Source of the DNA: a virus
DNA length: 40,569 nucleotides
IMG/VR virus record: IMGVR_UViG_3300036861_000589
Span: 1 to 40,569 of that record
Strand: one strand, 5' to 3'
Positions 1 through 40,569 of this stretch are shown in pieces (the stretch's first letter is position 1; every line of letters begins with the position of its first letter). The notes beneath the pieces are model-generated. The model saw only the letters and a list, made by a program, of their open reading frames with translations. It made no database searches and was not told the origin of the DNA. A program made the translations under genes and the position numbers.

Positions 1-240
1 GTGGCGGCGCCCGTGGCGTCGCGCGTGGCGGCGCGCGTGGCGGCGCGCGTGGCGGCGTCCGTGGCGGCGTCCGTGGCGTCGCGCGTGGCGGCGTCCGTGG
101 CGTCGCGCGTGGCGGCGCGCGTGGCGGCGCGCGTGGCGGCGTCCGTGGCGGCGCGCGTGGCGGCGTGAGTGGCGGCGTCCGTGGCGGCGCGCGTGGCGGC
201 GTCCGTGGCGGCGTCCGTGGCGGCGCCCGTGGCGGCGCGC
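1..240. repeat. 12-bp tandem repeat array, left part
   Basis: Twenty exact-length 12-bp units of the form GTGGCGGCGNNC run without interruption from the window start. The variable bases are mostly TCC, CGC or CCC, and three units have GTC in place of the second GGC. Read on the minus strand the array encodes a tetrapeptide repeat Thr-X-Ala-Ala with X mostly Asp, Arg or Gly, and it contains no stop codon. The same unit fills 40377-40569, so both ends of the window lie in one array. Near-identical codons between units point to recent expansion by slippage or recombination; 12-bp steps keep the frame. Confidence 0.97.
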
Positions 241-503
241 CGATTTTTGCGAAGCCACCAGATGCCTGCAGCAAAGCCGGCCGATACATTACCAACGAGA
301 GGACTTGGCACGAATACGATTCGCTCTGGCGGAGGCGGCGGCAGATCCGCCGCCTCGTATAGCCCCCTGATAGCCGCGCGCATCGCCTGTCGATCGCCGC
401 CGTCCATGGGCTTGGTAGACATGGCATTGGCGATCCAGCGGTCGGCCCAGGGCTTGAGCTGGTCGCGATGCTCCAGTGTCAGAGCGTAGCGCTTGCGGGT
501 CAT
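1..503 (-). CDS. DUF6745-like tetrapeptide-repeat protein, N-terminal part (cut by window end)
   Basis: The ATG at 503 has an AGGA site 9 bases upstream. The frame stays open to base 1, giving about 167 codons. It begins [19 protein letters not shown], followed by an acidic and Pro-rich stretch (DLPPPPPER, about residues 54-62), a short hydrophobic segment with [15 protein letters not shown] and AGIWWL, then the Thr-X-Ala-Ala repeats from about residue 87. No stop occurs before the window end. The other end carries the same repeats in frame with a DUF6745-like C-terminal domain (39638-40569), so this is its N-terminal part. I recall the same order (this N-terminus, Ala/Thr repeats, DUF6745) from other phage and bacterial proteins. 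The function is unknown. It lies 57 bases after the gene ending at 561, in the leftward early unit. Confidence 0.82.
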
Positions 504-560: not shown

Positions 561-1040
561 TCAGTCCGCGACACGCCGCTCCTCCGCGGCATTCCACTCG
601 TTCTGTCCGCCAACGTAATAACGCCCCGGCGAGATGCGCACGGCGTCGTGCTCGTCGTGGCGCAGGACGACGGGCGCGCCCTCGACAATGAGCAATCCGA
701 TGGCCAGTCGCTCATGGTCTAATTCGCCCAGCTCGATGAGCTGGCGGATGGCGCTTGGGTCGCGGTAGAGCCTGGCGGTGCCGGCCGGGGCCTGTGTCTC
801 GGCAGCAAGCTCCGGCGCCAACTCCCGCGCCAAGCCGTCGTCGCGGAACATGACGGGCTGCGGCAGCCAGATGGCGTGGTGATGCCCGGTCAGCTCGCCC
901 TCGGCCAGGATGAGGCGGCGGTCGCGGGGCCTCACCTCGTCGGCCAGGTTGAGCCGCACGCTATCGGGGAGGCGGAAGATTTCCACATCGCCCTGGCACA
1001 GGTCGCCGTTGGCGGGATTCCAGTCGATGATGCGCATCAT
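561..1040 (-). CDS. Small conserved phage protein paired with the DUF6745-like gene
   Basis: 159 residues. The ATG at 1040 has a strong AAGGAGG site just upstream, and its first four bases overlap the previous stop (ATGA). The middle holds AEGELTGHHHAIWLP and the C-terminal half holds VLRHDEHDAVRISPGRYYV, ending in a VAD tail. This matches a recurrent phage family I know by its pattern: GE-TGH-H, then H-EH-P/A-I, then PGRY, often found directly upstream of a DUF6745 gene as here. The conserved His residues could bind a metal; that is inference. No signal peptide or membrane segment is seen. The biochemical role is unknown. Its fixed pairing with the repeat protein suggests that the two act together. 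Confidence 0.8.
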   Translation of the reverse strand: MMRIIDWNPANGDLCQGDVEIFRLPDSVRLNLADEVRPRDRRLILAEGELTGHHHAIWLPQPVMFRDDGLARELAPELAAETQAPAGTARLYRDPSAIRQLIELGELDHERLAIGLLIVEGAPVVLRHDEHDAVRISPGRYYVGGQNEWNAAEERRVAD

Positions 1041-1477
1041 GAGTCCTCCTTGGGTTGGTGAAGCTCCCACAGCACCTCGTCCATCGAAGCGCAGATGTGA
1101 TCGGCCAGCAGGTTCATCAGCTCCGGCTCCTCGCCGTCGCGGGTGAGAATCATGGTGCGCTTGCCGGCGCCAGCCATCCATCCGAGTTCCAGGTGAGCCG
1201 AGCGGTCGCTGGGCAGCACGAGCAGGCCAACGTCGGCCCACTTCATCGCGCCGAAGTCGGAGTTGAAGCACTCCTGAACGCGCGGGTGTTTGAGGCCCTG
1301 GCGGTAGCGGTCAGCGGTCCACGCCTTCCACTCAGGGTCCGCCTCCGACCAGATGAAGCGGCGGGACCGGAGCGGGTTGCGGTAATCGTAGACATCGTAG
1401 CCGGTGTCGGTCAGCTGCCGGATCACATCGACGTGGTGCGGATTGCGCCACGATGAGGCGACATAGATTCGTTTCAC
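1037..1477 (-). CDS. Nucleoside 2-deoxyribosyltransferase-like protein
   Basis: 146 residues. The GTG at 1477 overlaps the recT stop (GTGA) and has AAGGAG upstream. The start KRIYVASSWRNPHHVDVI, the VYDYRNP segment, the acidic FIWSEADPEWKAWT and the late ADVGLLVLPSDRSAHLELGW are typical of nucleoside 2-deoxyribosyltransferase-like phage proteins: a small Rossmann-like fold with a glutamate in a SAHLELG-type motif. Such enzymes transfer or hydrolyse deoxyribose bonds of nucleotides. Whether this one is active on nucleotides, DNA bases or a signalling nucleotide cannot be told from sequence. It sits between recT and the DUF6745-associated pair and overlaps both neighbours by 4 bp, so it is translated with them. 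Confidence 0.78.
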   Translation of the reverse strand: MKRIYVASSWRNPHHVDVIRQLTDTGYDVYDYRNPLRSRRFIWSEADPEWKAWTADRYRQGLKHPRVQECFNSDFGAMKWADVGLLVLPSDRSAHLELGWMAGAGKRTMILTRDGEEPELMNLLADHICASMDEVLWELHQPKEDS

Positions 1478-2526
1478 GCCGCCGCTCCTTCCGATTGGGC
1501 GAGCCTCACCTTGAGACGGTCCTTCTCTGCCGCTAGCTCGGCCTGCCAGTTGGCGGGCAGCGCCTTGATGCTGGCATGCTCGTGCTTCCATAGCGCCGCC
1601 AGCATCGCAACTGTTGCCGCCATGCGCAGTGCCCGGAAGAGGCGCGCGTACTCCTCCTCGGCCGCTGCTTGCTCCGGCGTCTTGGCGGGCTTCGTGGCAG
1701 CCTTTTCGAGACGGGCGAGGTGCCGCATGGCGAGGTCGTTGGCGGCCTGCTCCAGGCCGCGCTCCTCGACCGTGGCCTTGTTGGCCTCGATGTGCTCGGC
1801 GAGCCGGGCCTCGGTGGCGGCCGTTGCGAAGGCGCCATCGAGGTCGGCCAGGTACTCGGCGTCGGTGGTCGCGATCTCACCGGTCTCGGGGTCGTGCGGA
1901 ACGTCGGGCACATCGGGGGGGGGCGCCTTCGGCATGTCGGGGATGTCAGGAGGCGCAATGGCCGCAGCCCGCGGCGTGATATCGCGCACGGGGATGTCCT
2001 GCGCCTCCTCACCGATGCAGAGACCCTTGAGGGCGTCGGAGAAGCCGTCGCGCAGCGCCCACGAGCGGGCGCGCATTTGGCGCATGCGCTGGGGGTACTG
2101 CGTCCACGGGCCGGCCTTGCCGGCGAGCCCAGCGCGCTTGGCGTCCTCCATCGAGAACCGGCGCACGATGAGCTTGGGGTTGCCACGCCGCTTGATGATG
2201 CACGTCGCCGTCGTGCCGTCGTCGGCCTCTTCAAAAGATTCCATGAGACCAGTGTGCTGCACGACGGCCAGAGCCCCATCGCCCCACAGCGACGGGCGCC
2301 CGTTGATGATGGCGATCGACGCCAGCGCGGCGAGCGGCAAGAGGCCAACCTCAAGGCCCTGCATGATGGCAACGCAGGTGTTTTCCGGCTTGCCCTTATA
2401 GGCTGCCGGCACCATATCGGTGCGCGCTAACAGGTCAGCGAGCCGCATGCACTCGTCGAATGACCTGGGCACGATACTAGCGACAGGGCCGCCGGCCATC
2501 AACGCAACTGCTCTGGACTCGGACAC
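1474..2526 (-). CDS. recT: RecT-family single-strand annealing protein
   Basis: 350 residues from a GTG at 2526 that directly follows the upstream TAG; an AGGAGA site lies just before it. Residues about 15-180 carry the RecT-family signature: PRSFDECMRLADLLARTDMV, KGKPENTCVAIMQGLEVGL, INGRPSLWGDGALAVV and MRARSWALRDGFSDAL. The protein would anneal complementary single strands during phage recombination and repair in the cytoplasm. The C-terminal third is Pro/Ala-rich and then charged, as is common in these proteins. No partner exonuclease gene is obvious next to it, although the two genes upstream are unassigned and could help. It belongs to the leftward early unit. Confidence 0.88.
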   Translation of the reverse strand: MSESRAVALMAGGPVASIVPRSFDECMRLADLLARTDMVPAAYKGKPENTCVAIMQGLEVGLLPLAALASIAIINGRPSLWGDGALAVVQHTGLMESFEEADDGTTATCIIKRRGNPKLIVRRFSMEDAKRAGLAGKAGPWTQYPQRMRQMRARSWALRDGFSDALKGLCIGEEAQDIPVRDITPRAAAIAPPDIPDMPKAPPPDVPDVPHDPETGEIATTDAEYLADLDGAFATAATEARLAEHIEANKATVEERGLEQAANDLAMRHLARLEKAATKPAKTPEQAAAEEEYARLFRALRMAATVAMLAALWKHEHASIKALPANWQAELAAEKDRLKVRLAQSEGAAA

Positions 2527-39637: not shown

Positions 39638-40569
39638 CTACGTCCTCACCGCCTCCCTGAACTTGCCCGCCGGCCGCGCGTAGCTTGCCGCCACCGCCGC
39701 GTGCGGCGTCGCTGCCTCCGGGTGCGCCCCCAGCAGGAACTCGCGTCGCGTCCCGTCCGGCTCCAGCGAGCCGTTGACGACGTGGACGTAGCGCACGTCG
39801 TGGATGTCGTAGAGCTTGCGCGGGCGGCCGTGCTCGGTATCCTCCGCGAGTAGCGTGGCACCCATGGCCTCCAGCATCGCATTGGGGCCGTGCACGTCGG
39901 CATATATTTCCATGAGGATGCGGCGCATCTCGGCATTGGGTTCGCTCAGCACGTCGGCGGCCAAGCGGACGTGGCGCTGCTCGATGTATTCGGCGGGGAT
40001 GCGCTGGCCGTGCCAGTGATAGAGCCTCCAGCCGTCGCGCCAGACGTGAGAGGGGCCGTCAGCGCAGTGCGGGCGACGCAGAGGGTCTATCTTGAGTACA
40101 GCCGGCCGATCGCTGACGATGCAGAAATCAGCATGCATCCAGCGCCAGGAGCCGTGGACTGCCGCGGCTTCGTAGTGCTGCCACTTGGCGTAAACGGGCA
40201 GATCGAGCTTCGCGATGTGCCGGAAGAAAGACAAGAAGGCGCACCACGCGCTCCAGTGATTGCCCCCATTGCGTATCAACCACGCTTTGCGCGCGCAGCC
40301 CACCAGAAACGAGGTGTCGCCGAAGTGATCTGCAACGCCTATCGCCCACCCGTCCGGCAGCGCGCCGTATCGACGCGTGGCGGCGTCCGTGGCGGCGCCC
40401 GTGGCGGCGTCCGTGGCGTCGCGCGTGGCGTCGTCCGTGGCGTCGCGCGTGGCGGCGCCCGTGGCGGCGTACGTGGCGGCGTACGTGGCGGCGTCCGTGG
40501 CGGCGCCCGTGGCGTCGCGCGTGGCGGCGCGCGTGGCGGCGCGCGTGGCGGCGTCCGTGGCGGCGGGCG
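39638..40569 (-). CDS. DUF6745-like tetrapeptide-repeat protein, C-terminal part (cut by window end)
   Basis: From the TAG at 39638 this frame is open to the window end, through 15 repeat units, and continues as the gene part at 503-1. After the Thr-X-Ala-Ala repeats come RRYGALPDGWAIGVADHFGD, TSFLVGCARKAWLIRNGG, SAWCAFLSFFRHIAKLDLPV, then the DUF6745 core: VSDRPAVLKIDPLRRPHCAD, GPSHVWRDGWRLYHWHGQRI and VVNGSLEPDGTRREFLLG. The whole protein would have about 478 residues with the repeats as found. A GTG within this part (40303) would lose the repeats and is not the real start. Function unknown. The direct join of the two window ends shifts the frame by one base (see findings). Confidence 0.82.
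   Translation of the reverse strand, partial: PAATDAATRAATRAATRDATGAATDAATYAATYAATGAATRDATDDATRDATDAATGAATDAATRRYGALPDGWAIGVADHFGDTSFLVGCARKAWLIRNGGNHWSAWCAFLSFFRHIAKLDLPVYAKWQHYEAAAVHGSWRWMHADFCIVSDRPAVLKIDPLRRPHCADGPSHVWRDGWRLYHWHGQRIPAEYIEQRHVRLAADVLSEPNAEMRRILMEIYADVHGPNAMLEAMGATLLAEDTEHGRPRKLYDIHDVRYVHVVNGSLEPDGTRREFLLGAHPEAATPHAAVAASYARPAGKFREAVRT
40377..40569. repeat. 12-bp tandem repeat array, right part
   Basis: Fifteen exact 12-bp units of the form GTGGCGGCGNNC (some GTGGCGTCGNNC) start at 40377, followed by a last unit of 13 bases (40557-40569), one G longer. Variants TAC (Tyr in the protein) at 40461 and 40473 are unique to this side. Together with 1-240 there are at least 35 units. 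Confidence 0.96.

Follow-up and report, generated by a model that had tools for sequence, protein, structure and literature searches.

What is the task of a phage protein in which an array of four-residue repeats separates two domains, and why does a small gene so regularly lie beside it? The question arose from a virus record of 40,569 bases (66% G+C), analysed over its full length and called the window here. An integrase, a terminase, a portal, a major head protein and a VapE-like protein are encoded in it, so the window is very probably a temperate tailed phage. Its two ends fall inside a single minus-strand tandem array of 12-bp units, which leaves a DUF6745 gene split over the two ends of the contig (Table 1). 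Our tentative answer is that this gene and its neighbour may form a tunable conflict module, carried as a mobile two-gene accessory.

Table 1. Features of the array-bearing gene and its upstream neighbours in the window
Feature	Position	Strand	Basis or remark
Array, first part, ~19 units	3-236	-	Exits contig at low end
DUF6745 protein, N-terminal domain	271-503	-	ATG at 503; in-frame GTG at 545 too
Partner protein, 159 aa	561-1040	-	Family alignments; PHROG 27831 E 3e-8
Nucleoside-deoxyribosyltransferase-like gene	1037-1591	-	PHROG 12607 E 2e-52 from residue 40 on
RecT-like annealing protein	1474-2526	-	PHROG 561 E 1.2e-50; farther upstream, same leftward run
DUF6745 protein, C-terminal part	39638-40567	-	Pfam PF20530 at about 39662-40180, residues 130-302 of 309
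Array, second part, ~16 units	40376-40569	-	Exits contig at high end

A DUF6745 gene cut open at its array

The sequence-only reading of this DNA had described a DUF6745-like domain, about 35 Thr-X-Ala-Ala units with mainly Asp or Arg at X, and coupled genes upstream. Its domain call was borne out: the C-terminal part matched Pfam PF20530 (DUF6745) at E 1.2e-26, with 93.7 bits against a cut-off of 27. Parsing gave 18.8 units in the N part and 15.8 in the C part, so the unit estimate is correct for what was assembled; the assembly was cut within the array and the true total may differ. X was D or R in 26 of the 34 whole units parsed, and the cut unit at the very high end has Pro at X. The coupled order also held, the start of the partner gene overlapping the stop of the deoxyribosyltransferase-like gene by 4 bases (1037-1040). 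The region of homology in the latter gene begins near 1474, and its match to Pfam PF05014, at 20.5 bits, is below the cut-off of 28.8.

The N part (3-503, minus strand) shares 64% and 60% identity with the N domains of L029 and L077, two DUF6745 proteins whose array type is like that of the window. An N-domain profile that has the window among its 33 rows matched at 276-494 (E 5.8e-26), and an AAGGA-like site lies upstream of the ATG at 503. No exact overlap of 12-200 bases was found between the two contig ends. Joined directly, the ends are out of frame; by eye, a one-base overlap (or 12n+1) would put them in frame.

Related viral contigs are broken in the same place. Among 58 viral loci collected by DUF6745 alignment, 24 have a contig end within the open frame 5' of the DUF6745 match and none has one 3' of it; this zero is biased, since loci were recognised by the domain itself. 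L078, among the 24, retains its N domain, which leaves 23 of the 58 contigs ending between the N and C domains. When these 23 and the window were taken together, the N-terminal half was found at the opposite contig end in 9 of 24 records, and the 15 in which none was seen were counted as misses. Phages cut inside the array include G003, G006, G012, G016, G017, G020, G022, G023 and the window (1-240 and 40361-40569). N-terminal halves at opposite contig ends mean that the maps of several of these phages are circular, or their ends redundant, and that assembly opened them at the array. On the practical side, metagenome assemblies hide the DUF6745 array and cut genomes open there, and array-opened contigs of phages with circular maps can pass for linear fragments.

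Two loci had unusual frames. At L043:1339-2394 the array switches frame midway (SSGT/SSGA to DQLG), leaving the N domain out of frame, which points to a gene that is broken or to a fault of assembly. At L078:2-400 an arginine-proline-rich repeat, unlike the arrays described here, shares the open frame of the N domain and lies upstream of it.

DUF6745 is paired with a small partner gene

The stop of the partner gene is 57 bases from the DUF6745 ATG at 503. With residues numbered from its second ATG (1037), Q15, G16, E48, H54, H130, E147 and D158 are invariant over 39 aligned partner sequences and G51, H127 and G138 are nearly so; the family pattern is QGD...GE.TGHHH...H.EH...PG.Y. Judged from sequence, the partner probably binds a metal via the E48/H54/H127/H130 set and is probably required for the core activity of the pair. 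As a lone query the window partner found no relatives in phage records or viral contigs; profiles, and a homologue used as query, did recover them. The family profile was iterated from a three-member seed, and it matches the window partner, which its seed alignment includes, at E 1.7e-56. Independent relatives are 58% and 33% identical to the window partner.

With the iterated profile, one partner member was found in 54 of 72 DUF6745 loci as well as in the window. Where the DUF6745 frame is uncut by a contig end, a same-strand partner lies nearby in 42 of 46 loci (downstream in 25, upstream in 17), a count that takes in a few near-identical phages. The N domain was detected in all of these 46 loci save L023 and L043, and the partner was not detected in L023, L024, L026 and L077. 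Pairs are tight: the partner is within ~120 bases in 39 of the 41 loci with a measurable distance, and farther off in L062 (0.5 kb) and L046 (1.1 kb). A search of 26 whole records, including the window, found a partner in 14 and none in the other 12, many of which are fragments. For L077, whose DUF6745 gene has ~60 T-X-A-A units, no partner was detected in the locus or in the 38-kb record.

The recurrence of this pairing in phages and bacteria had been put forward, with a profile search for co-occurrence as the way to check it. Such searches found the neighbourhood conserved in both: in the 42 uncut loci, in gp175-gp174 of the phage Ma-LMM01, and in all 15 chromosomal loci among the best matches (L137-L151), where the partner sits beside DUF6745 and no array was seen. 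DUF6745 and the partner thus stand side by side in very distant phages and in bacterial chromosomes, and because they do, the two very probably act together.

Chromosomal relatives near STM4011-STM4015

PF20530 matched 32 of 296 genomes of the class of a Mycobacterium genome (G027), 30 of them over cut-off, and 2 of 274 genomes of the class of a Pseudothauera genome: the centre genome itself and one other, below cut-off. By a hand count of coordinates, 20 of the 21 genomes with a DUF6745 match over 200 bits have STM4015 on that contig, no more than about 8 kb away; in the remaining one, G569, none was found within that distance on the contig. STM4015 was also matched in all five of the 16-kb contexts fetched. 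Among the proteins scanned at L152, L155 and L156 were the radical SAM proteins STM4011 and STM4012, the hydrolase STM4013, STM4014 and STM4015, and L154 gave leucine-rich-repeat and radical SAM matches. STM4015 is a leucine-rich-repeat protein that often occurs in tandem, with five matches within ~5 kb in G355 and G559. The STM4011-STM4015 cluster is little studied and is a new lead for DUF6745.

The chromosomal pair is like the phage pair in its N domain, its DUF6745 domain and its adjacent partner, and differs in having no tetrapeptide array and in its linkage to STM401x genes. These neighbours may point to a metabolic or peptide-modifying role. In the alternative that survives best, the pair belongs to a cellular pathway, so far uncharacterised, that centres on STM4011-STM4015 (two radical SAM proteins, an ATP-grasp-like protein, a hydrolase and a leucine-rich-repeat protein) and that phages modulate, copy or block, and the array is a lineage-specific adaptation. 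We regard this as possible but doubtful; it is compatible with a conflict module. The regularity with which STM4015 lies near strong matches argues for it. Against it, the strong chromosomal branch is one clade on the tree, and the weaker DUF6745 matches in the same genomes are without STM4015 linkage in the coordinates listed. Moreover, no listed ORF cluster (at least three loci, up to about 5 kb either side of the pair, three near-duplicate loci dropped) joins the STM401x genes of L025 and L152-L156 with the viral loci examined or with the 12 kb around the pair in the window.

Arrays vary in length and chemistry at a constant period

We parsed 60 arrays in 74 frames, the two window halves being counted apart; 55 have at least 10 units. 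The unit is four residues in all lineages, with a chemistry that differs between them: T-X-A/D-A; V-X-S/D/N/G-A; L or V-X-D/G/A/S-Q; L-X-S-S; L-X-A/D-N; and A-A-X-S.

Parsed length spans 5.5 to 93.8 units, and near-identical phages differ by whole units, which upholds the earlier suggestion of a spacer of changeable length. A Mycobacterium prophage locus (L011) and a viral locus (L067) are ~99.7% identical outside the array, with 45 and 18 parsed units, respectively. L066, which runs into a contig end, has 20 units; L069, whose C-domain stretch of 576 bases is identical, has 61. Between L038 and L040, which are both truncated at a contig end, the difference is one clean block of 5 units; L079 and L080 differ by 3 units. 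As 12-base units leave the frame unshifted, the array is a tuner, not an on/off switch; an on/off phase switch was rejected on this ground.

Variation within arrays was concentrated at one residue. In a set of 42 arrays (about 1,104 units), which leaves out 13 of the 55 as near-duplicates or of ambiguous phase, mean nucleotide entropy was highest at unit position 4 (1.38 bits), followed by positions 5 (0.76 bit) and 8 (0.58 bit); none of the other nine positions, all four third codon positions among them, exceeded 0.09 bit. Positions 4 and 5 open the X codon, and position 8 is the second base of the codon after it. With the 13 restored, the 55 arrays gave 1.30, 0.80 and 0.56 bits, with at most 0.16 elsewhere. 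All four third positions were at or below 0.1 bit in 27 of the 42 arrays, while amino-acid variation at X was at least 1 bit in all 42; X is the most variable of the four columns, so its variability is partly by construction, which does not hold for the contrast with third positions. In the two window arrays the first base of the X codon had 0.99 and 1.40 bits, one third position had 0.30 bit and the other seven had 0.

Pro, Phe, Thr and Met are absent among 1,093 X residues. The commonest residues are R (101), D (97) and Y (84) of 375 in the T type; D (109), G (95), R (91) and Y (35) of 371 in the V type; and G (107), W (92) and R (84) of 301 in the Q type. Neighbouring X residues are not more alike than in shuffled arrays (278 vs 300). 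The D/R repeats had been proposed to form a single long helix with i to i+4 salt bridges, and the salt bridges lack support on two counts: D/R order does not stand out from shuffled order (window p 0.32 and 0.45; lowest p 0.05 over 8 array stretches), and related families have G/R/W or G/D/R/Y at the X position. We therefore rejected the salt-bridged helix.

Since homogenisation by unit exchange would erase neutral variants, selection for variation is the simplest account of the diversity at X; targeted mutation is a conceivable source as well. The authors on Tweety made the same selection argument for its array (PMC2884959).

Repeat type also changes readily. We entered 84 C-domain proteins in a tree, after 13 near-duplicate or very distant loci had been dropped, and 83 were long enough; seven came from the 41 loci of a T-X-A-A scan and one from the AA-X-S loci (below). 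On these 83 tips, array state (eight states including 'none') changed about 19 times with period 4 kept, whereas shuffled labels need 47 changes on average. The window, of T type, stands next to a clade (support 0.99) whose arrays are of V type and Q type. Because the period persists through ~19 changes of chemistry, the array is no generic filler. To sum up the phage arrays, they are optional, built of 12-bp in-frame units that are gained and lost quickly as wholes, and diverse at X against near-silent third positions.

Arrays of this design are not confined to DUF6745. A scan of viral contigs for T-X-A-A arrays in DNA gave 41 stretches on 37 contigs, all 41 with a DUF6745 N and/or C domain in the array frame (E 1e-3 or better). 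An A-A-X-S scan gave 86 stretches in 80 loci, 69 of which have an open frame with such an array; the frames total 107, since the opposite strand often reads open too. Only 3 of the 107 have the DUF6745 C domain and none has the N domain. These loci (L157-L236) encode phage proteins with long AA-X-S arrays in which X, judged by eye, is mostly E, R or W. They resemble DUF6745 proteins in a tetrapeptide array with one variable residue and differ in end domains unrelated to DUF6745, save the three frames just mentioned. A Pfam scan of 10 of them gave one match to Imm5_like, a putative immunity family in Pfam, one to DUF6745 (L228) and none for the other eight. One-variable-residue tetrapeptide arrays thus serve several phage proteins that look unrelated.

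Two further readings concern the array. The array could be a passive flexible linker or a neutral minisatellite, its length irrelevant and the end domains doing the work. We think this unlikely. The array-free homologues (L037, L046, L054, L060, L062 and Ma-LMM01), the wide range of lengths and the low AlphaFold2 confidence in the array fit it. Neutral homogenisation, however, should not leave variation at X with silent variation nearly absent, and period 4 is kept through the changes of repeat type. Rather less probable is that the array is a recombinable recognition code, its number and order rewritten by unit recombination only, that retargets a two-protein inhibitor of host or prophage defences. 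Such a code would have one variable residue per unit, a small alphabet (R/D/Y, G/D/R/Y or G/R/W) and a chemistry re-invented within one family.

Array-free pairs in Microcystis phages

Five homologues (L037, L046, L054, L060, L062) are array-free, as is the pair in Ma-LMM01, where gp174 is a DUF6745 protein (profile E 4.5e-31) and the adjacent gp175 a partner (E 3e-25). Like the window, Ma-LMM01 has both families adjacent on one strand; it differs in its array-free linker and in its 162-kb genome. Full-length PHROG matches were obtained for gp174 (PHROG 31813) and for the partner of MaMV-DL02 (PHROG 27831). The arrangement is the same by eye in MaMV-DC, and MaMV-CH01, CH02, DL01, DL02 and DH01 have both families with one small gene in between. 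Because array-free versions exist, the array elaborates a two-protein core.

The Ma-LMM01 pair lies between the genes for DNA polymerase (gp178) and uracil-DNA glycosylase (gp173). Its position among these and clamp-loader genes, together with the RecT-like, exonuclease-like and deoxyribosyltransferase-like neighbours in the window, could suggest an accessory pair for replication, repair or nucleotide metabolism. We consider this improbable: defence-related genes are also found in such regions, which makes position alone weak evidence, and the neighbours of the chromosomal copies differ. The early genes of Ma-LMM01 are given as gp054-gp063, and the neighbours gp169, gp173 and gp178 as middle genes (PMC5780444). 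The pair is outside gp054-gp063, which counts against an immediate-early takeover role for the Ma-LMM01 version.

Structure prediction and searches for known folds

AlphaFold2 modelled the window partner mostly as strands (pLDDT 85.7, pTM 0.80). In a DUF6745 homologue it placed helices in the array, though at pLDDT 43-65, so that one long helix is no more than a possible form of the array. A short hydrophobic segment ahead of the array had suggested a membrane- or envelope-spanning superinfection-exclusion protein. The usual 19-residue hydropathy threshold for a membrane segment is 1.6. Such a stretch reaches it in 14 of 45 homologues, and membrane contact of DUF6745 proteins is for that reason kept as possible; an envelope-spanning protein is very improbable, since the best value in the N part of the window is 1.40 and the matching stretch of the homologue is modelled as a strand and helix of a folded domain (pLDDT 83-92).

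A Foldseek search of the PDB with both full models gave no match at E 0.001. With the full models as queries, the best VIA-align rows were NAD kinase (Z 2.1) and kinetochore KMN (Z 4.5), both dismissed as common arrangements; antifreeze protein 4ke2 appeared in the fold search at E 1.1 and Z 2.9. PDB sequence matches were dismissed as chance, the best being E 0.46 for the partner and E 0.012 for DUF6745, the latter to a repeat-like part of an unrelated large protein. NCBIfam gave no match for the DUF6745 proteins submitted and a weak one for the partner (E 0.074, far below cut-off), taken as chance. PADLOC at E 0.1 matched no family for five proteins (the C part, partner and neighbour of the window and the L034 homologues), so a known anti-phage defence protein was rejected. 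In the literature searched we found neither DUF6745 by name nor a functional test of any DUF6745 protein.

A candidate conflict module

A conflict system, one of the roles floated in the sequence-only reading, stays our best guess, held at less than even confidence and drawn by analogy with Tweety gp54. The DUF6745 protein and its small His/Glu-rich beta-strand partner would act as one functional unit. The array would be a helical adjustable spacer or interaction surface joining the two end domains; recombination between units would set its length and X residues, and selection would fit these to a changing target. By the same analogy the target might be part of a bacterial or prophage defence, or else a rival phage, and with such a module a phage could retune its interference without new genes. 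The Imm5_like match of one AA-X-S array protein among the 10 scanned is a point in favour. Tuning cannot be the core function, since array-free phage versions exist.

If the tuning model is true, it would account for a protein family that occurs in phages in culture, in prophages and on bacterial chromosomes, and would tie that family to STM4011-STM4015. In-frame minisatellites would then maintain phage protein diversity with no diversity-generating enzyme known to be needed, and natural variants in length and sequence would be ready to test.

Comparison with Tweety gp54 and Bbp36

Bordetella phage BPP-1 Bbp36 (variable region 2) is like the DUF6745 proteins in having short tandem coding repeats that change in number (PMC2884959). 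It differs in being a DUF7666 protein with octapeptide units, and no N, C or partner homology was found in its locus.

Mycobacteriophage Tweety gp54 is closer in design and is the best precedent. Unique N and C regions flank its tetrapeptide array, whose 12-bp units show amino-acid-changing variation beside invariant third positions and vary in number among relatives (PMC2884959). Period 4, 12-bp units between unique ends and near-invariant third positions are shared with the DUF6745 arrays, whereas the unit is AA[G/W/Q][S/Y] in Tweety gp54 and T-X-A/D-A in the window. In Tweety mutants that escape the defences of the prophages Phrann and MichelleMyBell, the number of tetrapeptide repeats is reported to have risen or fallen (PMC9262239, PMC8549241). 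A role in defence escape is therefore reported for Tweety gp54, and DUF6745 is likened to it by array design alone.

A 5.5-kb stretch of Tweety had no match to the N, C or partner profiles (best E 0.56), DUF6745 was not found in gp54, and PADLOC gave gp54 no match. Homology with either Tweety gp54 or Bbp36 was rejected, as profile searches found none, and without homology to gp54 the functional link is one of analogy only. The array of gp54 (L013:2645-3769) gave NCBIfam FliH matches far below cut-offs, which we took as composition, perhaps because FliH also carries small-residue four-residue repeats.

Tuned tetrapeptide arrays in a phage protein were thus already known, from one mycobacteriophage. 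New, relative to the literature searched, are the DUF6745-partner module, the breadth of the arrays, their repeated switches of chemistry within an unchanged period and the STM401x neighbourhood on chromosomes. Should the tuning model prove right, the DUF6745 arrays would add a second, independent and far more widespread case of the Tweety gp54 kind.
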